Source of the DNA: a virus
Length of the DNA stretch: 41,552 nt
Strand: one strand, 5' to 3'
Virus record (IMG/VR): IMGVR_UViG_3300024264_000071
Span: 1 to 41,552 of that record
Shown here piece by piece: positions 4,227-29,538 of this stretch. Position 1 is the stretch's first letter. Each line of letters begins with the position of its first letter. The notes under the pieces were generated by a model. That model was not told the DNA's origin. It searched no databases and was given only the letters and a program-made list of their open reading frames with translations. The position numbers and the translations under genes were made by a program.

Positions 4227-4684
4227 TGAAAGTCCATGTGAGACAGAGTACCCAATCAGATGTTGAATATCTTTGTGACAACTTACGCCCTGAGGATAGG
4301 GAAGAGGTACTTGCCTCACATGGTACTACAAGAGAAGCCTTACAGGTAGGCTTTGATGAATCAGAAGAGTGCTGGACTATTATAGTAACAGATACAGATG
4401 AGATAGCTGGTATATACGGACTAGCTAGGTATGACGATGACGTAGCAGTGCCGTGGCTATTGACCTCGCCAGCTATTAAAAAAGTATGGCTACCATTCCT
4501 ACGTGGCTCACGTAAATGGGTAGAAGAAGCTAATAAAAAATACCCCCTACTTACTAATGCAGTAGATGCAGACTATACAGTAGCTATCAACTGGCTACGT
4601 TTTGTTGGTTTCACGTTTATCAAGAAACATGAGAAATGGGGCGTAGGTAATAAACCATTTCTAGAATTTGTGAGGATACGATAA
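4226..4684 (+). CDS. gp13-like protein with GNAT-like fold
   Basis: A 152-aa protein in the position of T7 gene 13. The order of elements (N-terminal R-x-S-T-x-x-D-V, a central 'IAGIYGLARYD' strand, then VAINWLRFVGFTF near the C-terminus) resembles the GNAT acetyltransferase-like proteins often found between tail tube B and gp14. T7 gp13 is needed for proper internal core assembly. Acetyltransferase activity is not shown by the sequence; the similarity is of fold type and context. Both neighbours overlap it by one base. Confidence 0.8.
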   Translation: MKVHVRQSTQSDVEYLCDNLRPEDREEVLASHGTTREALQVGFDESEECWTIIVTDTDEIAGIYGLARYDDDVAVPWLLTSPAIKKVWLPFLRGSRKWVEEANKKYPLLTNAVDADYTVAINWLRFVGFTFIKKHEKWGVGNKPFLEFVRIR

Positions 4685-5364
4685 TGGATCCATTGACCAT
4701 GCTGACTATAGGTCAGGGTGTTGCTGGCTACTTTCAAGCAGAAGGTGAAGCCAAAAGAACAGAGGCACGTTACCAACAAAACAGAATTAACTCTGCTGCT
4801 GCACGTGACCTAAAGATAAACTCCTTAAATAAGAGAGCAATACAGGAAGCAGAGGCAACAGCAGGTAAAAAATTTGACCTAGCCTTACAAGCCCTAGAGA
4901 CTAGAGAAGCACGTAAGGTAGCTGCTGGTGAATCAGGTCTATCAGGAAGAACATTTGAAGCTCAGAAAGATATGGTTACTGCACGTGAACTACGTGGTGC
5001 TACAGTTCTAAACGATAACTTACGTATGGTACTAGACCAACTAGAAGACGAAAAGCAGGGTTTTAATACAGAGATGTTAAACAGGATTAACTCACTTCCA
5101 CGTGGTTATAAACCTAATGTCCTAGCACACGCACTTAGCACTGCTGCTAGTGCTTATGCAACAGAAACAATGATGACAGGTAAAAGTCCATTCAGTAGTT
5201 CCGCAAATCCTATGACTGCTACTAGTGCTACTATGCCAGTTGTAGGTCAAATGGGTCAGTCTGTAGCAGCAAGCCCACTTCAACAAAGTACTTTAAAAGC
5301 AGTACAAGCAGGTATGACACCAGCTTCTACATACGCCTATATTACTGGTATGCCTAAGATTTAA
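4684..5364 (+). CDS. Internal virion protein, gp14-like
   Basis: A 226-aa protein with the layout of T7 gp14: a short hydrophobic N-terminus (LTMLTIGQGVAGYFQAEGEA), then a long charged helical stretch to about residue 120 and a low-complexity Ala/Ser/Thr/Met C-terminus. gp14 is ejected and forms the outer-membrane part of the DNA delivery channel. It lies directly upstream of the gp15-like and gp16-like genes, which are in T7 order. Confidence 0.88.
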   Translation: MDPLTMLTIGQGVAGYFQAEGEAKRTEARYQQNRINSAAARDLKINSLNKRAIQEAEATAGKKFDLALQALETREARKVAAGESGLSGRTFEAQKDMVTARELRGATVLNDNLRMVLDQLEDEKQGFNTEMLNRINSLPRGYKPNVLAHALSTAASAYATETMMTGKSPFSSSANPMTATSATMPVVGQMGQSVAASPLQQSTLKAVQAGMTPASTYAYITGMPKI

Positions 5365-5376
5365 TAAGGAGTTATT

Positions 5377-8300
5377 ATGGCACAATCTAGAGTACAAGTG
5401 GGTAGATTAAACGCACCCACACAGTCTGATTTACGCCCACAAGCTGCTCCTGTAGAGACTTATGTAAGACCGCCGGAGACACAGCAACAACCTAGTCAGT
5501 TGTCACAATTCCTCACAGCTATAACTCCTGCTATACAAGCAGATGCTGACCTACGTAAAACTGAAAGACTAAAGCGTGAGCGTGAGATAGAAACTGGACA
5601 AAGACGTATACATGCTTCACAGCTAGACCAACAAGCTAAGATTATTGAAGCAGAACTAGATAAAGATTGGACAACAAACGAGCAAGAATATTTGCAGATG
5701 AATACGGCAGATGTTCTACAAAAGCGTAGAGATTTTGTTAGTGATGAGCTAGACAAGCTTAAAAGCACAGACATTGACCCTATGCTTTTGGATCAGTTTT
5801 CTATAAACATGGAAGCCCTGACAAATGTATGGGGCAAGACTGTTTACGAACCTGCCAAGATTAAAGAAAACAAAAGAGTAAATTTACAAACTCTTGGCAC
5901 ATCTATAATTAGTCAAGTAAAACTTAGTGAGACTGCGTTAACAACAGACCCACAAGCTTACAACAACGGTGCAGAATCTATCAAAACTCTTGTTGATGGT
6001 TTTATGACTGCCTATGGTTCTAACTTTACTAAAGCAGAAGTAAACGATGAACTAGTAAGAATAGCACATGAACAACGAGAAACAAATCCTAACAGCGCAC
6101 TGGTTCAGTACTTAGATAGTTCCTTATCAAACAATCAATTTGGTATTCCTAGACATTTAGATAAGTATACTGACATTAAAAAAGCACAAGCCTCTTCTGC
6201 TAGTGTTGGCTTTTCTGTTGCAAAAGATAATGCTGTAACTACTATGGCAACTGATGCCATGTCAAGAGCCTTTAATGGTGACGCCTCTGGCATTAACATG
6301 GAGACAGATGTTTCCTTTACTGTTAATGGTAAAAGTACTACGCATAAGTTTTCTAGAACAGATTACGCTAATGTAGCTGAATTTATCTATCAAGAAGAAT
6401 TTAACAAAGTAGCTGAATTACCTAAAGATACACCAGAAGAAATAGCTATTTTTAACGGTAGAGTGGTAGACTTAAAAAGAAAAAAACTTGAAATGTATGC
6501 TAGTATTGGTGCTGATACACCAATGATTGCTGAAGCAAAACGCTCAGGTGTAAAAATATGGTCTTCTGGGGACATAGATACATTAGACGCAGAAAAAGAA
6601 GATGGCACTAAATATAGCCAATCTTTAGAAGCAGCAAAAGATGCTTACTTGTTGTTTGAAGAAGTGTATGCTTATCAGGGTGAAGCTGGTTTACAAACCT
6701 TCTTAGAAGACGAAGACCAAAGAACAATGTTTCACACCATTAGGTCTAACATGAAGGTAGGTAACGAAGACTTTAAGAGTTCTTTACAGTATGCTCGTAG
6801 GTATAAACCAGAAGATGCGCCTAAATATACCTTTACAAAGGAAGACCTAAAAGATACTATTGATACGAGTTGGTTTACTTTTCTTCCATTTGTTGATGAT
6901 GATGTTGCAGAATCTATTAACGTAGAAGCAATGCGCCCAGCCGTACAAAAAAGGTTTGGAATACTAAAAAGTGTTGACCCTTTTAGGGACGATGACGATG
7001 TATTTGAACAAGCTGTAAAGGAAGTGTCTGATGGCTATGTAGCTGCCCCTGCAAGTGATGGGGAGTTTACAGTTATTAAACGTGCTAAAAACCTTACATC
7101 AGCTAAAGTAGATAAAGGTATCGCAGTATTAGGGGCATTAAACGAAGAAGCTATGGCTAATAAAGACTTTCGTAGTGCCATAAACTTAAAGTTAAATACT
7201 AAAGACTTAGAACTTCCTTTAGGTGGTGAAGCTTTTCTTCCTAGTTTTGTCTTAGAATACGAAACAAACCCTAACAATGATAATATGTTAGATGTACGAG
7301 CTATAGCTATAAAAGACGGTGAACGTGATTACTCTAACACATGGTTTATTCCTATGGGAGTTAGTTTACCTAGCATTGCTGAAGGGCGTAAGTCTAAGTT
7401 CATAGAAGATACAGTCAAAGCTTATAACGCTGACGTTAAAGCAGGTAAAGAAATTGCAGAACCAACAGAGGATGATGAAACACCTAACCTAACACCTAGT
7501 TTAAGTATGCCTAACATCTTTGAAGAGTTCCCAGCAGAACAGATGTTTGAAGATGTTGGACAAGAACTTAAAGATGTGGTTGGTAGTGTAGGTGATGCTG
7601 TTGTAGCACCAGCTAATGCTACTGCCTCAATCATACAAGATGAGGGTTTTGAATACACCCCCTATGATGACGAGGGTAAGCAATCAGTAGGTCACGGTCT
7701 ACAGATTGTATCACTAGAGGATGATGAGAAGGCTCTTATTGCTGACATCAACAACGTACAGCCAGAGGAATCTGCTGCTGTTGTTGCACTCAAAGTGGCT
7801 AAGATTGACAACTACTTTACTGACGTAGTAGAAGGCTTTCAAAGCCTACCAGAAACAGCAAAGTCTGGTATGATCCAGATGGGTTATCAGCTAGGTAGAT
7901 TTAATGTCACTAAGGAGTGGCCTAAGTTTATGGAGTCAATTAAAGAAGCTGCACAGTATGCTGAAGGTTCTGTAGAACAGGCAACTGCTCTTGCTAAAGC
8001 TAAGTTTAACATGCTTTACAATGTAGCAGAAGATGGTAAAGTTACAGCTACCAAGTGGGCTACACAGACTAAGAACAGAGCCATGAAAGTAGCTAATGAA
8101 CTTGCTAGTAGTGCAGGTGATGCAGCCACATCTGTCTTTGAGGCTGTTATACCTAAGGCACATGCTGATACAGACCTTATTCCGCAGAAAGAACAGTTAA
8201 AGGTAGGCGATGTACCAACGGCTTCTGCTGTTGTAGATATTGCCCTAGCTAAAAACCCTGCTGATGCTGCTTATAAATACTACGGTATTGATGAGAACAC

Positions 8301-8862
8301 AGATGAGGGTGCTGCTGCTGTTAAAGGTTTCTTTGAAACATCTGTAGGTAATTGGAACCCAGACCAAGAAACAGCGGAAGAGTTTGCCACAAATAAAGCA
8401 TGGTGTGCTGCTTTCTTAACACAGGTCTTACGTGATTCAGGCATCGACACTAAGGCTCTATTTGGTACAGACAAGTTTGACCAGATACGTGCCAAAGCTT
8501 ACACTAATGTGGGTACTCAAGTAGAGCCTACACAAGTTAAAGCTGGTGACGTAATGATTAAACAACATACACCAGAAGAGCGTAAGAAGTTTAAGTTAGG
8601 ATATGGTCACGTAGGTATTGTTGTAAAAGTAGAAGGTGATGAGGTATTCTTTATTGGTGGTAACACTGGTGATAGAGTAACCATGTCTTCTTACAGCATG
8701 AATGAGAAGCAGGTGGACTTTAGAAGAGTTCAAAACGCTTCTGACATTCCTACTGAAAGCTTACCTTCTATGCTTGAATTAAAAGCTGGCGTGTACACTA
8801 GAAAAGCAGTGAAGAAAGCAAAGAACTTGTTTACTAGTATGTACGATAACATATTTGGATAA
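5377..8862 (+). CDS. gp15-like internal virion protein with lysozyme-like and CHAP/NlpC-type domains
   Basis: An 1161-aa internal core protein in the gp15 position; T7 gp15 is about 750 aa. The first 740 residues are the helical, charged gp15-like core. Residues about 749-910 resemble a T4-type lysozyme (IIQDEGFEYTPYDDEGK then VGHG; Glu756 as candidate catalytic acid). After an Ala-rich linker, residues about 975-1125 form a cysteine peptidase-like domain of the CHAP/NlpC type: AWCAAF with Cys1010, GHVGIV with His1078, and Asn1096 in IGGNTGDRV. The start has a strong AAGGAG site. The predicted job is to cut peptidoglycan during genome entry. In T7 that activity sits on gp16. Confidence 0.88.
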   Translation: MAQSRVQVGRLNAPTQSDLRPQAAPVETYVRPPETQQQPSQLSQFLTAITPAIQADADLRKTERLKREREIETGQRRIHASQLDQQAKIIEAELDKDWTTNEQEYLQMNTADVLQKRRDFVSDELDKLKSTDIDPMLLDQFSINMEALTNVWGKTVYEPAKIKENKRVNLQTLGTSIISQVKLSETALTTDPQAYNNGAESIKTLVDGFMTAYGSNFTKAEVNDELVRIAHEQRETNPNSALVQYLDSSLSNNQFGIPRHLDKYTDIKKAQASSASVGFSVAKDNAVTTMATDAMSRAFNGDASGINMETDVSFTVNGKSTTHKFSRTDYANVAEFIYQEEFNKVAELPKDTPEEIAIFNGRVVDLKRKKLEMYASIGADTPMIAEAKRSGVKIWSSGDIDTLDAEKEDGTKYSQSLEAAKDAYLLFEEVYAYQGEAGLQTFLEDEDQRTMFHTIRSNMKVGNEDFKSSLQYARRYKPEDAPKYTFTKEDLKDTIDTSWFTFLPFVDDDVAESINVEAMRPAVQKRFGILKSVDPFRDDDDVFEQAVKEVSDGYVAAPASDGEFTVIKRAKNLTSAKVDKGIAVLGALNEEAMANKDFRSAINLKLNTKDLELPLGGEAFLPSFVLEYETNPNNDNMLDVRAIAIKDGERDYSNTWFIPMGVSLPSIAEGRKSKFIEDTVKAYNADVKAGKEIAEPTEDDETPNLTPSLSMPNIFEEFPAEQMFEDVGQELKDVVGSVGDAVVAPANATASIIQDEGFEYTPYDDEGKQSVGHGLQIVSLEDDEKALIADINNVQPEESAAVVALKVAKIDNYFTDVVEGFQSLPETAKSGMIQMGYQLGRFNVTKEWPKFMESIKEAAQYAEGSVEQATALAKAKFNMLYNVAEDGKVTATKWATQTKNRAMKVANELASSAGDAATSVFEAVIPKAHADTDLIPQKEQLKVGDVPTASAVVDIALAKNPADAAYKYYGIDENTDEGAAAVKGFFETSVGNWNPDQETAEEFATNKAWCAAFLTQVLRDSGIDTKALFGTDKFDQIRAKAYTNVGTQVEPTQVKAGDVMIKQHTPEERKKFKLGYGHVGIVVKVEGDEVFFIGGNTGDRVTMSSYSMNEKQVDFRRVQNASDIPTESLPSMLELKAGVYTRKAVKKAKNLFTSMYDNIFG

Positions 8863-8882
8863 TATTAAATTGAGGAGTTATT

Positions 8883-11800
8883 ATGGCTAAATCACTAGAG
8901 GCTATTCAGATGGAGTTAGGGTTTTCTCCCTTACCAACTTCACCTGAGACTCCTCAATTTAACAAATACCAAGTACGGCAAGCACAGGCAGAAGCAGAGA
9001 AGGATGCCAAAGGTTTTTTTAGTTTGCTTGGTCAATCTCAATATACTCAAGGAACTGCTGCTTCTACTGTTAGATACTTTGCGCCTGACTTTGATGACCA
9101 AAGACCATTTACTCAAGAGGTGGCTACTGAGCTTTTAGATGGCATTGATGATGAGATGCTAGTACAGAAAGTTCTCAAGGCTGGTGAAGAGCGTGGTACA
9201 GGCGGTGCTAAGAAAGTTGCACATGAAATAAAACTTAGCCAGCAACTTTACCAAGATATGTCTAATGCAGGTATGACAGGCTTTGCAGCTTACATGACAT
9301 CAGCCTTCTTAGACCCTGTAGATACTACTGCTGCTGTTGGTGTGGCTGCTGCTGTGTCTGCTGCTACCCCACCTCTTGCCCCTGTTACTGGTACTGCTGC
9401 TTTACTAGGTGTCAGAGGTACACAGTTATTTAGAAAGTTTCAGAAAGCCCCTGCCTTGTTTGCTACAGGTGCAGGTGCTGCCACAATGGGTGGTCTAGAA
9501 CTTCTTCGCGCACAAACTGTACACGATATTACTGGTAATCAGCTTATGTTAGCTACCGCTTTAGGTGGTGGCATAACTGGTGGATTTACCAAGTATGGCA
9601 GGTATATGCAAAAGCGTAAAGCTTTCCATGAAATTCAACAGTTGAAAGCAGAAGGCAAGCCTCTTAATGTAGAGCAAGAAGCACTTGTAAAACAGTTTTC
9701 AGATGATGTGATTGCAGAACAATTTACCAGAATGGTAGATGAGGTTGATGAGTTTAACCTAGACACCCCACGCACTGATGCTGACTTTGATAGTGATTCA
9801 CTTATAGCTGGTCTTACACGTAAAGACTTTACGGATATGACACCAGAAGAGTTAGCAGAGACATCTAAGCAAAGGGGTAAGTTTGCCAGCGCACGTGGTG
9901 TCATTTCTACTATTGTTCAGTTAAAAAACTCAGAAGACCCTGTACTGCGGTGGTTGGGTGATGGCTTGGCACTAAATAGTCTTGGTAATAAATCAGGAAA
10001 AGAAGTAGGTAGTAATGCCTTGGAACTAAGAGATACGTTAGTATCTTCAACTATACTTAAAGATGCCACAAAACTATCTGAATTGTATAAGACTGCAACT
10101 AAGAAACTTGATGTAAAAGAAACAGACGTAGAGTTTATGGTTGGTGAAGCTATGCGTAATCCTAACGCTAGGGTAATACCTGAGGTTAGAGAGATAGCTA
10201 ACATGTATAGTGCTAACATGGACAGAATGTTTAAAACAGCTATAGAATCTAATGCTGCTGGTTTTGTACCTGAGATGTTTGGTAAGATACAAAACTATTT
10301 ACCACGTATTGTTAATAGGCAACAAGTTTCAATACTACGCTTTGGTAATAAAGGCCAAGCCGCTAAGTTAAGTGACAAGGCTGACGGAGATATTAACGAT
10401 GCCTTTCTAGATTTAGGTGAGGCAGCTATCCGTGGTGGACAGCCAGACATCGAACTAAATATGGCTAAAGCACTTAAAGCTAAAGGTAAACCTGCTGGCC
10501 CTAAAGCTGTCAAAGCTGCTATCCAACAACTAGCCAAAGGGTACATGCGTACTCTACTCAACCCAAAGAATAACAACATACGTAAACTTGGGGATGGATT
10601 AGCTAGTGAAGATGAAGCACGTTTAGCACTCAAAGATTCAGGTGAATTTACCAAAGAACAAATAGATATTATTCTTGAGGTTGCTGCACAGACACCAAAG
10701 AAAGTTAAAGGTAATCCACGTGCTAGACATCGTATGCAACTAGATGAGACTGCTGAAGTTTTAGCTAGAGATGATGCTGGTAATATCTTTACTCTTAGGT
10801 TTGTAGATTTACTAGAGACAAATGGTAGAACCCTATATGAAAAGTACTTGTTTCAGACAGCAGGTGCTGCATCTTTGGCTACTAACGGTATTGATACAAA
10901 CAAGGTAGGTTCAGGCTTTAACACAATTATCGGCAAGGTAAAAGGTGGTACTGATCCTGATAAGGTAGCAAAAGAAATTAGGGCTGCTGAGTTTCTTTAT
11001 GATAGTGTAACAGGTAGACTACCGTATAGAGAAGACTGGTCATACGGAACTCGTAGAGGCTTTAATAGGTTTAGAGAAGTTAGCTTTGCTGCAAATATGG
11101 GCATGGCAGGTATGTCAGCCGTAATGGAACTTACTAACGTCTTGTTTGAAACATCTACTAAGACACTACTAAAGACAGTACCACAGTTAAACAAGCTAGT
11201 TATTGATGCACGTACAGGGCAGTTAAAAAACAAAGCTGCCCATGAGATGATGGTATTTACTGGTACTGGTGGTGATGGTCTTATGACTAAAGTTACATCA
11301 GTACGTAGTAGAACTGAGGGTTCTATCTTTGAAGAGTATGGTACTATTCAAGGTGATGTAACAGGGCTTGATGAATGGTTAGGTAAGGCACGTATCTTTG
11401 TATCAGTAGCTTCTGGTCTACAGGGTGTAACTGATATGCTACGTAGGTTGTCTATGTACAACTTTGCTACAGAATGGCAAGCAAAAGCTGCTGGCGGTAA
11501 GCTACCCTTCTCACGTATTAAACGTGAACAGATGGGTATCAATGATGCTATGGGTGTAGCCATAAACAAGGAGATACAGAAGTGGGCTGAAATAAATCCA
11601 CAGACAGGTGTTCTTGATGTACTAAACCTACAGAAGTGGGGGTCAGACGTAACAGGTGCAGAGAGGGCTGCTGCTTTGGAAGCTCGTAATGTTTTCTTAC
11701 GTGCTGCTAGAAGAGAAGCTACACAATCTGTACAGGAAGTTAATAACGGTTCTGTAAATTACTTGCTTCGTAGTGAAGTAGGTAAATCAGCATTTCAATT

Positions 11801-12284
11801 CTTGTCATTTCCTATGGCTTCTTTAGAACAACAAGCAGGACGCTTGGCTGTTAGAGCAGCTAATGGTGATGCTGTAGATGTAGCTAAAATTTTGACATCT
11901 GCTGCTGGTTTAGGTATGCTTATGTACACTGCACGTACACACCTTAACTCCCTTGGACGTAGTGATAGAGAAGACTACTTAGAAAGACAAATGCAAGCTG
12001 ACCGTTTTTGGCTTGGTTCTTTAGGTCAAATAGGTTCAGCATCTTTGTTTGCTTATTTGTACCAAGTATCAACAGGTATTCTAGATGGACAAACAAAAGG
12101 CTTAACACCTGCTGTTGCCTCTTGGATAGTCAGTGGTGCTGCTGGTGCAAAAGATTTAGGAGAGATGATAGCTGGTGATGACTTAACTGAGAATGAACTT
12201 AGGAGTTTACTAAGGATTTTACCGTTTAGTTCTTTATACGGAGCAAGGCAGTTAATTAACGGTGCAGCTTCTATGGCAGACTAA
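8883..12284 (+). CDS. gp16-like internal virion protein (DNA ejectosome)
   Basis: An 1133-aa protein in the gp16 position; T7 gp16 is about 1318 aa. I see no soluble lytic transglycosylase domain at the N-terminus, where T7 gp16 carries one; instead an Ala-rich hydrophobic region lies at about residues 140-200. The C-terminal part (SVQEVNNGSVNYLLRSEVGK, FLSFPMASLEQQAGR) is typical of gp16-like core proteins. The shorter length fits loss of the enzyme domain. It shares the GAGGAGTTATTATGGC start context with the gp15-like gene. A 13-bp promoter-like motif lies inside it at 11287-11299. Confidence 0.88.
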   Translation: MAKSLEAIQMELGFSPLPTSPETPQFNKYQVRQAQAEAEKDAKGFFSLLGQSQYTQGTAASTVRYFAPDFDDQRPFTQEVATELLDGIDDEMLVQKVLKAGEERGTGGAKKVAHEIKLSQQLYQDMSNAGMTGFAAYMTSAFLDPVDTTAAVGVAAAVSAATPPLAPVTGTAALLGVRGTQLFRKFQKAPALFATGAGAATMGGLELLRAQTVHDITGNQLMLATALGGGITGGFTKYGRYMQKRKAFHEIQQLKAEGKPLNVEQEALVKQFSDDVIAEQFTRMVDEVDEFNLDTPRTDADFDSDSLIAGLTRKDFTDMTPEELAETSKQRGKFASARGVISTIVQLKNSEDPVLRWLGDGLALNSLGNKSGKEVGSNALELRDTLVSSTILKDATKLSELYKTATKKLDVKETDVEFMVGEAMRNPNARVIPEVREIANMYSANMDRMFKTAIESNAAGFVPEMFGKIQNYLPRIVNRQQVSILRFGNKGQAAKLSDKADGDINDAFLDLGEAAIRGGQPDIELNMAKALKAKGKPAGPKAVKAAIQQLAKGYMRTLLNPKNNNIRKLGDGLASEDEARLALKDSGEFTKEQIDIILEVAAQTPKKVKGNPRARHRMQLDETAEVLARDDAGNIFTLRFVDLLETNGRTLYEKYLFQTAGAASLATNGIDTNKVGSGFNTIIGKVKGGTDPDKVAKEIRAAEFLYDSVTGRLPYREDWSYGTRRGFNRFREVSFAANMGMAGMSAVMELTNVLFETSTKTLLKTVPQLNKLVIDARTGQLKNKAAHEMMVFTGTGGDGLMTKVTSVRSRTEGSIFEEYGTIQGDVTGLDEWLGKARIFVSVASGLQGVTDMLRRLSMYNFATEWQAKAAGGKLPFSRIKREQMGINDAMGVAINKEIQKWAEINPQTGVLDVLNLQKWGSDVTGAERAAALEARNVFLRAARREATQSVQEVNNGSVNYLLRSEVGKSAFQFLSFPMASLEQQAGRLAVRAANGDAVDVAKILTSAAGLGMLMYTARTHLNSLGRSDREDYLERQMQADRFWLGSLGQIGSASLFAYLYQVSTGILDGQTKGLTPAVASWIVSGAAGAKDLGEMIAGDDLTENELRSLLRILPFSSLYGARQLINGAASMAD
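11287..11299 (+). promoter_or_regulatory. Intragenic copy of the 13-bp promoter-like motif
   Basis: CTAAAGTTACATC is identical over 13 bases to the motif at 12286 and 29542, but it lies inside the gp16-like gene and lacks the TAG-type flank. It could be a weak promoter or a chance match. Confidence 0.25.
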
Positions 12285-13911: not shown

Positions 13912-14409
13912 ATGGGTTACATTGGTAATCAGGCTGTACAAGGCTACAGCAGCATCCCTACTAAACAAGACTTAACAGGTGCGACAGGTGGGACACTAAC
14001 ATTGACCCACGCTGTATCTAGCCCAGAGGCTATTGACCTGTACATCAATAACGTCCGTCAGGAGCCTACTGAATCATACGGTGCAGCAGGTACTACAGTT
14101 ACCCTCAATGGTTACACTGTAACAGCGTCAGATGACATTTACGTGGTGCATAATGCACTAGCATTGCAGACATCTGTACCCCCTGATGGTTCTGTTACAT
14201 CAGCCAAGCTAGACCCTAACCTTGTACTAGGTGGCGGTAGCTTTCTTGGAGACAGTGGCGGCGGAACTGCGGATATATTTCGTGTACATGAGGATGAGTT
14301 GAACACAGACATTACTGTGGTGGCTAATACCAATGCTCTGTGTGCTGGCCCACTAACTGTAGCAACAGGAGTTACTGTAACTGTAAACGGTAATATGGTG
14401 GTAGCATGA
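13912..14409 (+). CDS. Fibre-associated protein, MGYIGNQ-type
   Basis: A 165-aa beta-rich protein. The opening MGYIGNQAV, an early strand pair ending in AIDLYINNVRQ, a short TVTASDDIYVVHNAL segment and the DGSVTSAKLDPN linker all recur in the larger protein at 16988-17896 (MPYIGKAPV ... DGTVTTAKI). Such proteins are common as fibre or fibre-tip components in marine phages. It ends with ATGA overlap into the next gene. The two related copies suggest duplication in this locus. Confidence 0.75.
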   Translation: MGYIGNQAVQGYSSIPTKQDLTGATGGTLTLTHAVSSPEAIDLYINNVRQEPTESYGAAGTTVTLNGYTVTASDDIYVVHNALALQTSVPPDGSVTSAKLDPNLVLGGGSFLGDSGGGTADIFRVHEDELNTDITVVANTNALCAGPLTVATGVTVTVNGNMVVA

Positions 14410-14768
14410 GTGACCTAAGAGTAAACACAATCAGTGCAAGCGATGGCACAAGTCCAGTCACGCTGACTAAGCAAGAAGCGGCGAAGGCTTGGCTATCGGG
14501 AACTGTAGATGCCAATTTGACAGACTCACTTAATTTTTCATCAGGCATTGATGTTGTTGCGGGTGATTTTGATTATTCTCTGACTAACGCCGCAGCAGCA
14601 CAAATGGACGACAGTTATCTTGGAGTGACTGCGGGCGGTGCGGCATATTATGGCCGGATAGGGACTGGTGATACAACCACAACTGTCGTGGATGTCAAAA
14701 TACATAATTCATCTGCTGCACTTTCAGATTCGACACACTTTGTAATTTTTGTTGGGGATTTAGCATGA
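14406..14768 (+). CDS. Fibre module paralogue 1 (AKAW type)
   Basis: A 120-aa protein, first of three tandem paralogues. Pattern: a short N-terminal strand region (LRVNTISASDGTSPVTL), the motif AAKAWLSG, then a beta domain with SLNFSSGIDVVAGDFDYSLTNAAA, ending in VGDLA. The A-K-A-W ... F-N-x-S ... D-Y-x-x-x-F/L-T-x-A pattern is widespread in marine phage fibre tips. It overlaps its neighbours by four bases on both sides. The bases look richer in G and C than the preceding genes, which may point to exchange. Confidence 0.75.
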   Translation: MSDLRVNTISASDGTSPVTLTKQEAAKAWLSGTVDANLTDSLNFSSGIDVVAGDFDYSLTNAAAAQMDDSYLGVTAGGAAYYGRIGTGDTTTTVVDVKIHNSSAALSDSTHFVIFVGDLA

Positions 14769-15187
14769 GTGAAATCAAAGTAGATACCCTCACAGGCAAG
14801 ACCACCGCCAACGACATTACCGTGACGGTTGGTGCTAGTGTTACACAGTCTCTAGAACAGGGTTTGGCAAAATCTTGGGCGTCTATTGACCAAACTAGCA
14901 CCGACCATCCTGTTTATGATTCATTCAATGTTTCTGCAACTGCCGATGTTACCGCTGGCACAACAAAAGTTTCGTTCACCAACGCTTTCAGCAACGCAAA
15001 TTACAGTCTAGCAGGCGTTGGGCAAACTAGAGATCATTCTGGTGCTAATTTTGGATTGTGGGGTAAAAGCACTGTTTCAAGTCGGCAAATGACAACGGCT
15101 GATTTTCATACGAGAAATGTAAGTAGCAGCGGAGTCGATACTGATATCACTTACTTTGGTTTTGCAGTTCACGGAGACTTAGCATAA
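14765..15187 (+). CDS. Fibre module paralogue 2 (AKSW type)
   Basis: A 140-aa protein and the second tandem paralogue: N-terminus EIKVDTLTGKTTANDITVTVG, motif LAKSWAS, then YDSFNVSATADVTAGTTKVS and FSNANYSLAGVG, ending in HGDLA. The domain order equals that of the genes on either side, while the sequence is quite different, as expected of receptor-contacting modules under diversifying selection. The DNA around its end (15165-15190) is repeated exactly at the end of the next gene. Confidence 0.78.
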   Translation: MSEIKVDTLTGKTTANDITVTVGASVTQSLEQGLAKSWASIDQTSTDHPVYDSFNVSATADVTAGTTKVSFTNAFSNANYSLAGVGQTRDHSGANFGLWGKSTVSSRQMTTADFHTRNVSSSGVDTDITYFGFAVHGDLA

Positions 15188-15190
15188 TGG
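15165..15190 (+). repeat. Fibre-module junction repeat, copy 1
   Basis: A 26-bp sequence identical to 15524-15549. It encodes the end V-H-G-D-L-A, stop and ATG of the next gene. It begins CAGTTCACGG and ends GCATAATGG. Confidence 0.9.
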
Positions 15191-15546
15191 CTGGAAAAAT
15201 TATAGCAGATACGCTGGAACACAGCACCGCTGGGTCAATTGCCACGAACTATGTTGTCGAGGGTAGTGCGAAGGCGTGGGTTCTAGGAACCGATGCCGCC
15301 GTCAAAATAAAATCATTCAACATTGCGTCTGGCTTAGACAATACCTACGGTGATTATACCTACTCTTTCACAAGCAGTATGGATAGTGGCGACTTTGTTG
15401 TTGGAAACAGCATAGCACAAAGTAACACAGGTAGTTCTCATAACGATTCAAGAACCTCAAGCAATTATAGGGTTAGTTATACAGATGCTGGTTTTGGTAG
15501 GGCAGACAGAGTTAATAATTCTTCAGTTCACGGAGACTTAGCATAA
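15187..15546 (+). CDS. Fibre module paralogue 3 (AKAW type)
   Basis: A 119-aa protein and the third tandem paralogue: ADTLEHSTAGSIATNYVVEG, motif SAKAWVLG, then IKSFNIASGLDNTYGDYTYSFTS, ending in HGDLA. It starts and ends in copies of the same 26-bp sequence (15165-15190 and 15524-15549), which contains the last codons of one gene, the stop and the ATG of the next. This would allow the module to be swapped or lost by recombination without disturbing the flanking genes. Confidence 0.78.
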   Translation: MAGKIIADTLEHSTAGSIATNYVVEGSAKAWVLGTDAAVKIKSFNIASGLDNTYGDYTYSFTSSMDSGDFVVGNSIAQSNTGSSHNDSRTSSNYRVSYTDAGFGRADRVNNSSVHGDLA

Positions 15547-15549
15547 TGG
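15524..15549 (+). repeat. Fibre-module junction repeat, copy 2
   Basis: The second exact copy of the 26-bp junction sequence. It closes paralogue 3 and opens the gene at 15546. Shorter relatives (TTAGCATGAGTG at 14759, GCTAGCATAATG at 16979) mark other module ends. Confidence 0.9.
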
Positions 15550-16010
15550 AAACACCATCATTCAAAGGCACCCACCTGTTTGACCGCCTATGCTGGGCAA
15601 AGGAAAACCTAGAGCCTGTGCAAACAGACTATCGGGTGGTCTACGAGGACAGTGTGGACGAATGTGCCAAGGTGCTTATTGCAGACCCGAACTGGCTAAG
15701 TTGTGCATTGCAAGGCGGTATCCTACCACCTGTGTGGGTGTACCATGAGTTAGCTAAAGATGAGGCACAGCCCGACTTTAAGAAACATACACGTGGATAC
15801 CTTCTGCATCAGACAGAGCCTGTAGGCGCAATGACAGAGGAAGAGGCTATCGAATATTTAATTATGAAAGACTGCCCTGAATCTGTATGGAAAACATATA
15901 ACGAGGGTAATCGTCCTAAGATGGTTATCTGCAAAAAACAACAACTACCTCAGACTAGACAATGGCGTAATGCTTGGAAGATTTCTGAGGAACTTAACAT
16001 AGCCGCATAG
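15546..16010 (+). CDS. Conserved protein of the fibre locus, 154 aa
   Basis: A 154-aa globular protein, acidic and with several Trp and Cys residues (GTHLFDRLCWAKENL, DPNWLSCALQGGILPPVWVY, HTRGYLLHQTEP, RPKMVICKK). Unlike its neighbours it does not look like a beta-rich fibre part. I recall similar sequences near fibre genes of marine phages but no assigned function. An assembly factor or a virion component is possible. It is coupled by TAATG to the preceding fibre module. Confidence 0.75.
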   Translation: METPSFKGTHLFDRLCWAKENLEPVQTDYRVVYEDSVDECAKVLIADPNWLSCALQGGILPPVWVYHELAKDEAQPDFKKHTRGYLLHQTEPVGAMTEEEAIEYLIMKDCPESVWKTYNEGNRPKMVICKKQQLPQTRQWRNAWKISEELNIAA

Positions 16011-16019
16011 GAGAATATA

Positions 16020-16382
16020 GTGGTTGATACATATATCGTAGATAAAGACGGTAATCAGGCAAATGCTGCTAGTGTAACCGTTCCCTCAGACCGTAACTTT
16101 CGTGGTGCTTGGGTACTCTCAGGCAACGTAATCTCTGAGGATATTGATACAGCTAGAGAAATTTTTAAGGACAAAGTACGTGAAGCACGTAAGCCTCTGC
16201 TTGAATCCAAAGACGTAGAACTGATGAAAGCACTAGAAACAGGTGCAGATACTACAGCTATCGCTGCTGCTAAGAACGCATTGCGTGATGCACCAGCCGC
16301 TGCTGCTATTGCTTCAGCATCTACCATCGAAGAACTAAAGGCTGCTTGGGACACATCTGTACTTGGTGCAAGCCCTTACTAA
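16020..16382 (+). CDS. Probable fibre assembly chaperone-like protein
   Basis: A 120-aa protein. The N-terminal beta part contains VPSDRNFRGAWVLSGNVISE; the C-terminal half is helical and Ala-rich (AREIFKDKVREARKPLLESKDVELMKALE, then a run of Ala). This two-part layout, including the R-x-R-x-P-L-L segment, resembles tail fibre assembly/chaperone proteins of other phages. The function is inferred. The start is GTG at 16020 with AGGAG at 16009-16013. Confidence 0.7.
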   Translation: MVDTYIVDKDGNQANAASVTVPSDRNFRGAWVLSGNVISEDIDTAREIFKDKVREARKPLLESKDVELMKALETGADTTAIAAAKNALRDAPAAAAIASASTIEELKAAWDTSVLGASPY

Positions 16383-16394
16383 AAGGAGGCTATA

Positions 16395-16988
16395 ATGGCA
16401 CGAAGTATAATACAATCCGAAAGCATGAACCTTGCTGATGATTTTGCGTTCACTGGTACGGTAAGCGGGGTTGCATCTGGTGTAAAGCAAACTGTTGTTC
16501 ATCAAGAAACTACAGTAAAAACAGATGGTCATGTTTTTGCCAGCAGTGGCACTAGCTTTAGGCTTATGTCTGCGGCAAACGCAGTAGATAGCACCTCAAA
16601 AATGGAAGTAACAATTACTCCAAGTTCTGCAAGTTCAAAAATACTAATTTCAGTTTCTTGTTTCTTTGAACCTAACACAAGCCAACATGATGTATTTTGG
16701 ACATTGTACAGAAATACAAGCACACGATTAGGGCAAGCAGATGACGGTAATAGGCGTGGCGGTATAGCAAATTCAATGACTTCATTAGATGGTAATAATG
16801 ACAGTACACTGGATAGTGTTAAGTTTATTTTTCAAGACGAGCCTAATACAACATCAGCCACAACATACACATTAGCTTTTAGCGGGGCTGGTTCAACGAA
16901 TTTGTTTTTGAATAGACCAGTAGGTTATGGAGATTCTACAGGCATTGAAAGAACAGTTAGTTTAATTATGGCACAGGAGCTAGCATAA
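16395..16988 (+). CDS. Fibre-tip-like protein, SSKI type
   Basis: A 197-aa beta-rich protein. After a helical start it carries VTITPSSASSKILISVSCFFE, a pattern that recurs as LNITPASNSSKIMLTASVV in the protein at 17906-18457 and is common in fibre tips of marine phages. The end SLIMAQELA parallels TAMEIAG of that paralogue. A receptor-binding or fibre-tip role is inferred. AAGGAGG at 16382-16388 is a strong ribosome site. Confidence 0.78.
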   Translation: MARSIIQSESMNLADDFAFTGTVSGVASGVKQTVVHQETTVKTDGHVFASSGTSFRLMSAANAVDSTSKMEVTITPSSASSKILISVSCFFEPNTSQHDVFWTLYRNTSTRLGQADDGNRRGGIANSMTSLDGNNDSTLDSVKFIFQDEPNTTSATTYTLAFSGAGSTNLFLNRPVGYGDSTGIERTVSLIMAQELA

Positions 16989-17896
16989 TGCCCTACATAG
17001 GAAAAGCACCAGTAGGCGGTGGGTTCCACAAGCTGGACAACCTGACTGCCTCTGCTACAGATACCTACGCTCTTACGCTAGGTTCTGCGGCATACTACCC
17101 AGAGACTGCTAATCAGCTTCTGGTTTCACTTAATGGTGTCATTCAGGCTTGCCAAGATTCGTTCACAGTATCAGGCAGCAACCTTGTATTTGCCAGCGCA
17201 CTAACAAGCTCAGACAGCATCGACTTTATTGTAGCTCTTGGTGATGTGTTGGGTGTGGGTGGTGTTACTGACGGTACTGTGACTACAGCTAAGATTGCTA
17301 ACAATGCTGTGACTATGGATAAGCTGGCAACAAGCGGTACATTACCAGCATTGGATGGTTCTAATCTTACTGGATTAAGCGGTAGTAATGTCAAAGAACA
17401 ACTTGTGATGCTCTGTGATGGCGAAGATTACACAGTATCAAGTGGAACTTATACAGCAGCAAATGTGACTGTAAAGCAAGACATGACTACTACTTATGCC
17501 GATATAACTGGCTCAAGCATATCATATACACCCCCAAGCGGCACAGTTTGTGTACTTTATGAGTTTATATTTGCATATGTTTTCATAGACGACCACGCCA
17601 TAAGCCATTTCAGACTTTATATCGATAGTGATGAAGTCACTGACCAAAGGCAAACTATTTCCTGTCAAAGTAGGCCGCAATGGCAACAAAGCCTCAGATA
17701 CATAATACCAATAGGCGGTACTGGAAGCACATCGACAGGTAGACAATCCACTTGGACAACAGCCAAAACACTAAAAATACAAGGCCGTGATTACGGTGCC
17801 AGCAATGATGCTGAACTTCATACCGCTGAGCATTGGGATGGTACTTCGTTTACTGGTGTAATCAAACCAAAACTTTTAATTACGGCACTGGGCTAG
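16988..17896 (+). CDS. Fibre protein, MPYIG-type with distal beta domain
   Basis: A 302-aa protein in two parts. Residues 1-130 resemble the protein at 13912-14409 (MPYIGKAPV, a strand pair ending LLVSLNGVIQ, then SDSIDFIVALGDVL and the linker DGTVTTAKIANNAVTMDKLA). After Gly/Ser-rich LDGSNLTGLSGS, residues about 140-300 form a distinct beta domain (SISYTPPSGTVCVLYEF, HFRLYIDSDEV) that is the likely tip. Overlaps the preceding stop by one base (TAATG). Confidence 0.8.
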   Translation: MPYIGKAPVGGGFHKLDNLTASATDTYALTLGSAAYYPETANQLLVSLNGVIQACQDSFTVSGSNLVFASALTSSDSIDFIVALGDVLGVGGVTDGTVTTAKIANNAVTMDKLATSGTLPALDGSNLTGLSGSNVKEQLVMLCDGEDYTVSSGTYTAANVTVKQDMTTTYADITGSSISYTPPSGTVCVLYEFIFAYVFIDDHAISHFRLYIDSDEVTDQRQTISCQSRPQWQQSLRYIIPIGGTGSTSTGRQSTWTTAKTLKIQGRDYGASNDAELHTAEHWDGTSFTGVIKPKLLITALG

Positions 17897-17905
17897 GAGA
17901 CTGAT

Positions 17906-18457
17906 ATGGCACTAATAAGATTAAACAATCAGTCTTTGACCAGCGTCACTGCGTTGCCAGCGGCTATTCCTACTGGTAGCGTGTTGCAGGTTGTTAGCGC
18001 AACAGAAACTGCTGCATCTTCATTCTCAAACAGTGGCGCATTTGCTGATGTAAACGGTTTGACATTAAACATCACCCCAGCATCTAACAGCAGTAAAATT
18101 ATGCTAACCGCTTCAGTTGTGGCATCAGTCCAAAACACAAATGCTGATGGTTTAGTGTTACGATTCACTGGCGGCAATTCTACAAATTACATTGCTGATA
18201 CAGAAGGTAGCAGAATATCTGGTGCAGTAGGTATGAAAACGGAAAGCACAAACTTTCACTTTTACTTTGTTCCATTTCCTTTTCCTATGCAGTACCTAGA
18301 CAGTCCAGCAACCACAAGTCAGATAACCTACAAAGTGCAAGCGGCCTACACAGGTGGTTCAGGAACTTTGTATTTCAATCAAGCAGGGCAAGATGGCGAC
18401 AACAATACGCATATGAGAACAGCATCGACATTGACTGCAATGGAGATAGCTGGCTGA
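17906..18457 (+). CDS. Fibre-tip-like protein, SSKI type, paralogue
   Basis: A 183-aa beta-rich protein with the LNITPASNSSKIML pattern shared with 16395-16988 and an aromatic stretch FHFYFVPFPFPMQY that may be surface-exposed. It is the last gene of the fibre locus and overlaps the first lysis gene by one base (TGATG). A receptor-contacting role is inferred from family type and place. Confidence 0.78.
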   Translation: MALIRLNNQSLTSVTALPAAIPTGSVLQVVSATETAASSFSNSGAFADVNGLTLNITPASNSSKIMLTASVVASVQNTNADGLVLRFTGGNSTNYIADTEGSRISGAVGMKTESTNFHFYFVPFPFPMQYLDSPATTSQITYKVQAAYTGGSGTLYFNQAGQDGDNNTHMRTASTLTAMEIAG

Positions 18458-27069: not shown

Positions 27070-27113
27070 AGATATAGTAAAGGGGGGTCTTATCATGGTT
27101 GTAACTTTAGAAA
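27062..27113 (+). repeat. Inverted repeat, right arm, over the RNAP start
   Basis: This arm covers the end of the preceding gene, the ribosome-binding site (AAGGGGGG at 27080-27087), the ATG at 27095 and the first six codons of the polymerase. It is the reverse complement of 22755-22805 with one gap and three mismatches. Confidence 0.92.
27089..27111 (-). promoter_or_regulatory. Minus-strand copy of the phage promoter-like motif
   Basis: CTAAAGTTACAAC on the minus strand (27110 to 27098), followed by CATGATAAGACC, close to the terL-end copy (CTAGACAAGACC). If active it would drive leftward RNA antisense to the RNAP ribosome site and the early island. Confidence 0.45.
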
Positions 27114-27892
27114 CTAACCAAGACCTATTTGAACACCAGCTTGAACTTGAGGCAGACATGCTGACAGGGGGTGTCAATCGCTTCAGGAAGGCCAGAGACA
27201 AGGCCATTGAGAAGGGTAGGGAATCACACCTGCCACATGGTAGAGCCATTGTGGGTACAGTTGTGGGGCAGGTAGCACAGGGTATAGAACAGTACCTAGC
27301 CAACCCCAGCAATCCATCAAGAGACATAGCATGGAAGCGTGTCAGGAATATGGATGCAGAGCAGGTAGCCTACCTCTCAGTGGTGTCGCTGGTTGACAGC
27401 ATCAGCAGGAAGAACACACTGCTGCATGTGGCACGCACCATTGGTACTAACATTGAGATGCAGGATAGACTAGACAGATGGGTACACGCAGAAGGTAGCG
27501 TAGCAAAGAACACAATCAAAGAGGCTATGAAGAAAGCCTATGGTGCTAGACGCTACGGTCTGACACACAAGATGAACAAGGATGGTTACGAAGAATTAGC
27601 ATGGCTAAAGTCAGAGCGTGTGCATGTAGGATTTAAGATGGTGGACATCATCATCCAGCACACAGGTATTGTTAAGCTGGACACACAGCAGACTGAACGT
27701 AAACGCAGGGCTACCTACGTTAAACCTACTGACGGTACGCTAGAGTTTATCAAGGCGTTCAACGAATACATGGAAGTATCAAGACCACGCTACCTACCCT
27801 GCATAGTGCCACCCAAAGACTGGACAGATGTACAGGGTGGTGGGTTTCATGGTCACGATATAGATGAACTACCTATAGTGAGGCGCAAATGA
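27095..27892 (+). CDS. T7-type RNA polymerase, N-terminal subunit
   Basis: A 265-aa protein that matches the N-terminal domain of T7 RNA polymerase, which binds the upstream promoter and helps initiation. HVGFKMVDIIIQHTGIVKL corresponds to HVGVRCIEMLIESTGMVSL of T7, and LPCIVPPKDWTDVQGGGF to QPCVVPPKPWTGITGGGY (T7 about 269-286). It ends at the equivalent of T7 residue about 300 with a TGA that overlaps the ATG of the next ORF, which continues the polymerase in the -1 frame. Start and ribosome site lie in the right arm of the inverted repeat. Confidence 0.93.
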   Translation: MVVTLETNQDLFEHQLELEADMLTGGVNRFRKARDKAIEKGRESHLPHGRAIVGTVVGQVAQGIEQYLANPSNPSRDIAWKRVRNMDAEQVAYLSVVSLVDSISRKNTLLHVARTIGTNIEMQDRLDRWVHAEGSVAKNTIKEAMKKAYGARRYGLTHKMNKDGYEELAWLKSERVHVGFKMVDIIIQHTGIVKLDTQQTERKRRATYVKPTDGTLEFIKAFNEYMEVSRPRYLPCIVPPKDWTDVQGGGFHGHDIDELPIVRRK

Positions 27893-29538
27893 GTTTGAAG
27901 ACACACTTACGCAGACTAAAGCAGGAAGACTTGAGCCAAGAGTATGCCTGTCTTAACACACTGCAACGGACAGAGTGGCGTATCAACAAGCCATTGCTTG
28001 AGGTGATGCGTACCATATGGGACAACGGACATGAGTGGGGTAAGCTACCAGCCAAAGTGGATATACCACTACCTGAGTATCCCTTTGACCGTGACCCCAA
28101 GCAGTTGACTGAGGCTGAGAGGGATGACTTTCGTGCATGGTCACGCAAGCGTAATCATATCTACTCTCTCAACAACCGCAGCGTGAGCAAGCGCATACAA
28201 GTAGAGCGTACACTACAGATAGCAGAACAGTTTTCTAAGTATGACAAGTTCTATTATGTGTGGCAGAACGACTTCCGTTCTCGCAAGTATGCAAGCAGCA
28301 CGTTCCTCTCACCTCAGTCTGCCGATTGGAGTAAGGCACTGCTAGAGTTTGGCTACCCTATGGCTATCAATAGCTGGGACGATGCACGATGGTTGTGTAT
28401 TCATGGTGCCAACCTGTACGGTAACGACAAGGTTACACTAGACCAGCGTGAGACATGGGCATGGGAGTACGCAGAGATGTGGGCGCACCGCATTGTATCC
28501 AACCCATACGAGTGCTTGGTCTGGCTTGAGGCAGACAAACCATTCCAGTTCTTGGCATGGTGTTACGAGATGTCAGGCCTGATGAAGCATAGCTGGGGGT
28601 ATGAGACACGCCTACCTGTATCAGCAGATGGTAGCTGCAATGGGCTACAGCACCTCTCTGCCATACTGCGGGACAGGCAGGGTGGCCTTGCTACTAACTT
28701 AGTACCATCAGGTATACCTCAAGACATCTACACACAGGTGGCAGACAAGACTATCGCACGTGTGCAGCAGGACGACACAGAACTAGCACGTAAGTGCTTG
28801 GCCTTTGGCGTAGACAGGAAGCTTGCCAAGCGTCCAGTAATGATCGTACCCTACAGTGGTACACGCCACGCCTGTCGTGGTTACATAGAGGAAGCTATGC
28901 GTGAGAAGATAGATGGTGGTGAGCCTAACCCATTCGGTGATGATTTGTTTGAGGCATCCAATTACCTAGCTGGTCACGTATGGGATTCAATCAGTGAGGT
29001 AATTGTATCAGCACGTAAGGTGATGGATTACATTAAGGATGTGGCTGATGTGTATGCTCAGATGAACAGGCACATGGAGTGGGTCACACCTACAGGATGG
29101 TTAGTATTACAACAATACAGTGAGGTGCAGCAGAAAAGAATCAAGACACATATCAATGGGGGCATCGTGTCGTTGTCCTTTCCTAAAGACAAACCAAACT
29201 CTGTTAACAGGCAGAGGACAGGGTTGGGCAGCAGCCCTAACTTTATCCATAGTCTGGATGCGTCAGCTATGACCAAGACTATCAACAAGGCAAGCAATCT
29301 AGGCATCCAAGACTTTGCTATGGTACACGACAGCTACGGTACACACAGTAGTATGATGCCACTGTTGTCTGAGGTATTACGTGAGGAGTTTGTTAATATG
29401 TATGAGCAGCATGATGTGTTGACAGAGTTGAGGCAACATGCTATCAAGGTACTAGGTACTGAAGATGTACCAGTGCCACCAGCTAGGGGTGAATTAAATT
29501 TGCGTGAGATACTACAATCAGAGTATTTCTTTGCGTGA
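27889..29538 (+). CDS. T7-type RNA polymerase, catalytic subunit
   Basis: A 549-aa protein covering thumb, palm and fingers of the T7 enzyme from about T7 residue 300 to the end. Catalytic Asp247 (ADGSCNGLQH, T7 Asp537), Lys314 and Tyr322 (AKRPVMIVPYSG, T7 Lys631 and Tyr639) and Asp481 (MVHDSYG, T7 Asp812) are all present, as is DFRSRKYASS near residue 127 and the C-terminal FFA. The promoter specificity loop differs from T7, so another promoter is expected. Both halves together make 814 aa against 883 in T7. The ATGA overlap suggests coupled translation and assembly in trans. Confidence 0.95.
   Translation: MSLKTHLRRLKQEDLSQEYACLNTLQRTEWRINKPLLEVMRTIWDNGHEWGKLPAKVDIPLPEYPFDRDPKQLTEAERDDFRAWSRKRNHIYSLNNRSVSKRIQVERTLQIAEQFSKYDKFYYVWQNDFRSRKYASSTFLSPQSADWSKALLEFGYPMAINSWDDARWLCIHGANLYGNDKVTLDQRETWAWEYAEMWAHRIVSNPYECLVWLEADKPFQFLAWCYEMSGLMKHSWGYETRLPVSADGSCNGLQHLSAILRDRQGGLATNLVPSGIPQDIYTQVADKTIARVQQDDTELARKCLAFGVDRKLAKRPVMIVPYSGTRHACRGYIEEAMREKIDGGEPNPFGDDLFEASNYLAGHVWDSISEVIVSARKVMDYIKDVADVYAQMNRHMEWVTPTGWLVLQQYSEVQQKRIKTHINGGIVSLSFPKDKPNSVNRQRTGLGSSPNFIHSLDASAMTKTINKASNLGIQDFAMVHDSYGTHSSMMPLLSEVLREEFVNMYEQHDVLTELRQHAIKVLGTEDVPVPPARGELNLREILQSEYFFA

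Follow-up and report, generated by a model that had tools for sequence, protein, structure and literature searches.

In phage T7, a transglycosylase is carried by gp16, an ejection protein, and is presumed to open peptidoglycan from within the ejectosome. Where would the corresponding activity reside in a T7-like phage whose gp16 appears devoid of any such enzyme? This question is raised by the 41,552-nt virus record IMGVR_UViG_3300024264_000071 (positions 1 to 41,552, called here the window). The T7 gene order is kept, with gp11, the nozzle gp12 (PF25675, 2.6e-228), a gp13-like protein (phrog_308) upstream of gp14, gp14 itself, a gp15-position protein, a gp16-like protein and then the tail-fibre genes. 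The first-pass annotation had proposed that peptidoglycan-cutting domains had moved from gp16 to the gp15-like protein and had been doubled there. The features considered are collected in Table 1.

Table 1. Ejection genes, C-terminal enzyme module and separate endolysin of the window, with predicted catalytic positions
Feature	Position	Strand	Basis
gp14 ejection protein (outer-membrane pore)	4684..5364	+	PF24072 T7_gp14 1.3e-15
gp15-position ejection protein, 1161 aa, C-terminal GH24 + CHAP module	5377..8862	+	ORF; between gp14 and gp16 homologues; homologues L001-L040 and others
N-terminal body, residues 1-734, mainly long helices; presumed tunnel part	5377..7578	+	AlphaFold mean pLDDT 75.6; assigned by position and size
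GH24 (T4-lysozyme-type) domain, residues 745-910, predicted	7609..8106	+	PDB profile matches; model superposition on T4 lysozyme; homologue L160 passes PF00959
Glu756, predicted catalytic acid	7642..7644	+	E in 60/61 homologous domains
Asp765, eight residues past Glu756 as in GH24 E-8-D-5-T; then Ser770 after four intervening residues	7669..7671	+	alignment, 61 homologues
Linker between GH24 and CHAP, residues 911-937	8107..8187	+	between the two domain models; pLDDT low over much of it
CHAP cysteine-peptidase-type domain (core 1007-1096) and C-terminal tail	8188..8859	+	PF05257 5.2e-7; TIGR02594 4.9e-11
Cys1010, predicted nucleophile	8404..8406	+	C in 44/44 related domains
His1078, predicted catalytic base	8608..8610	+	H in 44/44 related domains
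Asn1096, predicted third catalytic residue	8662..8664	+	N in 44/44 related domains
gp16-like ejection protein, 1133 aa, without SLT domain	8883..12284	+	phrog_342 4.7e-69; no SLT in 44 homologues
Separate GH24 endolysin, 139 aa	19827..20246	+	PF00959 4.8e-19; phrog_7 endolysin 1.2e-24

Outside the ejection genes, we observed tail-fibre-like ORFs of repeated families at 13912-18457 (three consecutive phrog_11355, two phrog_6942 and two phrog_18673). The phage RNA polymerase is encoded by two ORFs at 27095-29538, of 265 aa (RPOL_N) and 549 aa (phrog_414 positions 271-816), with a 4-base overlap. The N-terminal piece is an open frame of its own (261-290 aa) in all seven relatives having it, and this split looks lineage-wide.

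We examined the gp16-like protein for its family membership and enzyme content. Residues 27-1130, that is the body of the protein, matched the gp16 family phrog_342, and a profile search of the PDB gave the internal virion protein 9sfn_G (2.3e-8). Residue 27 aligned at profile position 207 of 1235, past the SLT domain, indicating that this protein lacks the SLT part found at the N-terminus of T7 gp16; only 26 residues precede the start of the family alignment. A Pfam scan of the window gp16 and 43 relatives (44 in total) gave neither SLT nor any other peptidoglycan hydrolase at E <= 0.01, while the positive controls were readily detected with the same library (SLT at 1.7e-31 in T7 gp16 and 2.5e-9 in a Rhizobium phage gp16). 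A hidden transglycosylase in gp16, which would have contradicted the first-pass annotation, was dropped on these two grounds, and its description of a gp16-like protein without recognizable enzyme domain was borne out.

The ORF immediately upstream occupies the gene position of gp15, with gp14 (PF24072) on one side and gp16 (phrog_342) on the other. Size and synteny are the usual basis for assigning gp15 homologues (PMC8954989), and the label ‘gp15-like’ used for this protein likewise rests on gene order and size. Comparison of T7 gp15 with the window gp15 body gave an hhalign probability of 0.1, Foldseek returned no T7 gp15 match, and the full-length gp15 alignment used as a profile against the PDB yielded nothing useful. 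Since neither the sequence nor the fold searches linked it to T7 gp15, we refer to a gp15-position protein rather than to a gp15 homologue. Homology of the N-terminal body to gp15 of T7 or K1-5 was dropped, as no similarity was detected. By analogy with T7, the protein would nevertheless be carried in the virion as an ejection protein and would probably form the periplasmic tunnel.

We then analyzed the C-terminal part of this protein, where a lysozyme-like domain had been reported from the letters alone. With the single window sequence, the PF00959 gathering score was not reached and Pfam matches were weak (Pesticin, 0.086). In contrast to this single-sequence search, a profile built from 14 relatives and compared with the PDB gave, as the best 60 of 415 matched sequences, T4 lysozymes or endolysin entries and one ‘artificial protein’ entry, the last being the top match (E 5.5e-4). 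The match reaches both ends of the domain, with the N-terminal lobe at one and the W..QT.RA motif at the other. The T4-lysozyme fold was also recovered in an AlphaFold model of residues 735-1161, whose GH24 part (pLDDT about 65-92 over most of the domain) superposes on T4 lysozyme with a TM of 0.62-0.69 by target length. Moreover, the homologous domain of L160 exceeds the Pfam Phage_lysozyme (PF00959) threshold (39.2 bits versus 22.3, E 1.1e-9) and that of L006 nearly reaches it. The predicted domain, a putative GH24 muramidase of T4-lysozyme type over residues 745-910, is weak from the single sequence and firm at the family level. The gp15 lysozyme as a recent copy of the endolysin of the same genome was dropped, the similarity being only marginal (BLASTP E 0.011, a single comparison).

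The second domain, announced as a Cys/His peptidase-like domain with Cys1010 and His1078, extends over about 938-1125. The PF05257 match at 1007-1096 scored 30.5 bits, above the gathering score of 26; TIGR02594 matched at 992-1109, under its cut-off. The CHAP part of the AlphaFold model was of low confidence (pLDDT about 30-77), and matches in a viral library include proteins named CHAP, peptidase C51 and TIGR02594. The CHAP profile gave nothing useful against the PDB. We also observed that close CHAP relatives (53-54% identity) form the C-terminal end of separate proteins, about 297-339 aa long (L221-L232), on unrelated contigs of up to 74.7 kb; these proteins are a possible source of the gp15 CHAP domain.

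Both proposed enzyme domains were recovered, and the wording ‘moved’ and ‘doubled’ needs correction. T7 gp16 and the window gp15-position protein are alike in their presumed task; however, the T7 enzyme is an N-terminal SLT lytic transglycosylase, on another protein, at the other end and of another family. A literal transfer of the T7 SLT domain was dropped since the window domain is GH24, and the difference of family corresponds to a replacement. Similarly, two enzyme domains are indeed present, but GH24 and CHAP belong to unrelated families, and duplication of one domain was dropped.

In the T7 model, gp14, gp15 and gp16 exit the head and make a conduit of which gp15 is the periplasmic part (PMC8954989). 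A similar scheme can be proposed here: the gp15-position protein would be packed in the head, ejected with gp14 and gp16, and would build the periplasmic conduit. Its C-terminal module would open the peptidoglycan around the growing conduit, GH24 cutting glycan strands and CHAP, of amidase/endopeptidase type, cutting stem or cross-link peptides, and would so take over the task of the T7 gp16 SLT domain. We consider it quite probable, from domain matches, models and the T7 analogy, that this is a gp15-position ejection protein whose last ~420 residues form a GH24 + CHAP module, accompanied by a gp16 without SLT, and that this exchangeable module opens peptidoglycan during ejection. As suggested by the first-pass annotation, we reasonably infer that one protein may cut both glycan and peptide bonds.

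An alternative would be that only one domain is a working enzyme and the other a degenerate wall-binding or structural one, for instance a working CHAP with a GH24 that merely binds glycan. E-8-D is kept, but D-4-S replaces D-5-T in the window and most members, leaving an active-site loop one residue shorter with Ser for Thr (L004, L086 and L006 retain the full E-8-D-5-T). One relative, L126, is seemingly without the catalytic Glu, and about half of the related gp15 proteins have one enzyme domain or another. These three observations would agree with a single enzyme. However, Glu756 is kept in 60 of the 61 homologues, as read from the alignment, with Asp765 at GH24 spacing throughout, and Cys1010, His1078 and Asn1096 are invariant in the 44 related CHAP domains. 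Also, dN is well under dS in both domains, as in the comparison with L007 for GH24 (0.049 and 0.46) and for CHAP (0.014 and 0.30). We regard this alternative as unlikely.

The module might otherwise double as the lysis enzyme, an endolysin joined to a structural protein, as unrelated phages encode separate proteins of ~300-340 aa that terminate in a close CHAP relative, and the Roseobacter phages CRP-403 and CRP-804 carry a distantly similar free-standing CHAP protein. Nevertheless, the window has its own GH24 endolysin, and all eight relatives tested, whether or not they carry CHAP, have it at 75-97% identity. The existence of this separate conserved endolysin suggests that the module is not the lysis enzyme, and we give this reading very little credit.

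How general is the GH24 + CHAP arrangement? Among 50,697 records of cultured phages, none had a homologue of the whole gp15 and only two short CHAP matches were found, whereas many gp15 homologues were obtained from IMG/VR. We compared 89 distinct gp15/gp16 pairs, a set enriched by searches using the domains themselves. GH24 + CHAP was present in 34 pairs, GH24 at the very end in 16, GH24 followed by another domain (about 200-270 residues, no Pfam match above threshold) in 11, CHAP without this GH24 in four and a distant CHAP/NlpC-like domain in six; the remaining 18 had neither GH24 nor CHAP by these two models. Other glycosidase-type domains occur among those 18, namely PF00959 in L158 (3.6e-10) and L150 (4.9e-5) and a weak PF18013 tail-lysozyme match in L193; another weak PF18013 match is seen in L190, one of the pairs classed above as having CHAP but not this GH24. 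For the 55 pairs found via gp16, the corresponding numbers were 12 (GH24 + CHAP), 13 (GH24 at the end), 5 (GH24 + other), 1 (CHAP), 6 (distant CHAP/NlpC) and 18 (neither). According to both sets of counts, GH24 + CHAP is one common form among several.

In the place of CHAP, a domain family with a conserved Y[ND]FN motif was observed in L024, L077, L083, L085, L092, L115, L120, L148, L160, L161 and L180. It forms the C-terminal 200-270 aa of gp15 and comprises two subfamilies joined by weak BLAST matches.

We next considered whether the enzyme module and the tunnel proteins follow the same history. Compared with L010, nucleotide identity of the window was ~30-50% over most of the gp15 body, 87-96% over 7602-8802 and ~35-69% in gp16. 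L001 gave the opposite pattern, being ~95-100% identical to the window along the greater part of the body and 62-86% identical in the module, with gp16 mostly at 82-99%. In the pair L016 and L021, the bodies are 99-100% identical (dS <= 0.01) while the CHAP domains are only 50% identical (dS 1.38). Consistently, for the 27 proteins with both domains, pairwise distances of the gp15 body correlated with those of gp16 (Spearman 0.72), whereas GH24/gp16 distances showed little correlation (0.17) and CHAP/gp16 distances none (0.01).

The comparison with G001, the genome of L008, was of the same kind. GH24 and CHAP are 90% and 96% identical and the other compared genes mostly 94-100%, with the exceptions of SSB (74%) and one fibre gene (61%). 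The entry proteins fall to 64% for gp14, 42% over less than half its length for the gp15 body and 32% for gp16. Divergence in these three far exceeds that of most other genes compared with this otherwise near-identical relative. Spreading of the module between distant phages was dropped as an explanation for this pair, since the two share a near-identical backbone and the differences lie instead in gp14, gp16 and the body of gp15.

The identity contrasts with L010, L001 and G001, together with the distance correlations, point to tunnel proteins and enzyme module as separate units: sequence comparison shows the module to be an exchangeable cassette that recombines apart from the gp15 body and gp16. 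Which of the two units was exchanged, as read from these alignments, varies from pair to pair. All compared sequences are metagenomic contigs and the window's exact gp15 body/module junction had no second independent contig among the relatives, so that chimeric assembly could in principle mimic such exchange. Nonetheless, the same combinations were found in several metagenomes (L008-L012 from different samples, L001 and L002 in two), many other junctions repeat in independent samples, the window's module/gp16 junction recurs in L004 and the reading frames remain open, which makes an assembly artefact highly improbable.

Several phages are already known to carry a lysozyme on the gp15-position protein. 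SP6 gp36, K1-5 and phiKMV gp36 (C-terminal lysozyme) have been listed as virion lysozymes (PMC5380687), and K1E and K1-5 have been discussed as domain swapping between ejection proteins (PMC8954989, a 2022 review). In SP6 gp36, K1-5/K1E gp35 and phiKMV gp36, as in the window, a glycosidase stands at the C-terminal end of the gp15-position protein; unlike the window, these phages have a single enzyme domain and no CHAP. We re-tested the K1-5 protein and found PF00959 at 776-910 of 982 aa and no Pfam domain in K1-5 gp16. K1-5 therefore resembles the window in having a Phage_lysozyme family domain at almost the same place and no enzyme domain found in gp16, but the profile comparison was weak (E 0.00096) and the N-terminal bodies were without similarity.

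Two-enzyme virion proteins are known elsewhere. HydH5, phi11 gp49, phiMR11 gp61 and CwlP similarly unite, within a single virion protein, a glycosidase and either an amidase or a peptidase, but these are tail proteins of long-tailed phages with Gram-positive hosts. Conversely, Caulobacter phages (e.g. CcrRogue) and Ag3-type myophages have a distantly similar CHAP/TIGR02594-type domain (28-32% identity) on entry-apparatus proteins; these are tape-measure or baseplate-hub proteins of long-tailed phages and not ejection proteins. All two-domain virion lysins listed in 2017 come from phages of Gram-positive bacteria (PMC5380687), and peptidase domains were described in 2018 as almost confined to phages with Gram-positive hosts (PMC6116005). 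Our literature search for a two-enzyme virion lysin in T7-like phages found no exception, which does not prove absence.

The host is likely Gram-negative, judging from the T7-like virion genes. The sole match of the lineage among genome contigs was L194 (7625-14617; gp15 with GH24 + CHAP, and gp16), on a single-cell assembly contig labelled Candidatus Poseidoniales archaeon AG-422-I18. A Poseidoniales archaeon as host was not accepted, as this lineage is not expected to have peptidoglycan; a co-sorted virus or contamination seems likelier.

If the host is indeed Gram-negative, the double, exchangeable GH24 + CHAP version on a tunnel protein appears to be new. We lean, with some reserve, towards a broader reading of these comparisons: an uncultured, mainly marine T7-like lineage would possess on gp15 the first two-enzyme (glycosidase and peptidase) virion lysin in a T7-like phage. 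This would be an interchangeable cassette of several forms (GH24 + CHAP, GH24 alone, GH24 + unknown domain, tail-lysozyme-like + CHAP and NlpC/P60-like alone) recombining apart from the gp15/gp16 tunnel bodies, so that wall chemistry and envelope passage could be tuned separately. Selection on ejection proteins is known in P22, in which mutations in gp16 and gp20 allow escape from SieA exclusion (PMC10883804); that a similar selection acts on the window ejection proteins is a guess.

Should both domains prove active, virion lysins combining two cutting activities would extend beyond phages of Gram-positive hosts, and a T7-like phage could deliver glycan- and peptide-cutting on a single ejected protein. 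Ready-made comparisons are offered by the natural swaps, in which close relatives have most of the genome in common and differ in the enzyme module or in the tunnel parts. Such comparisons would allow asking which part answers to the host wall and which to other barriers.
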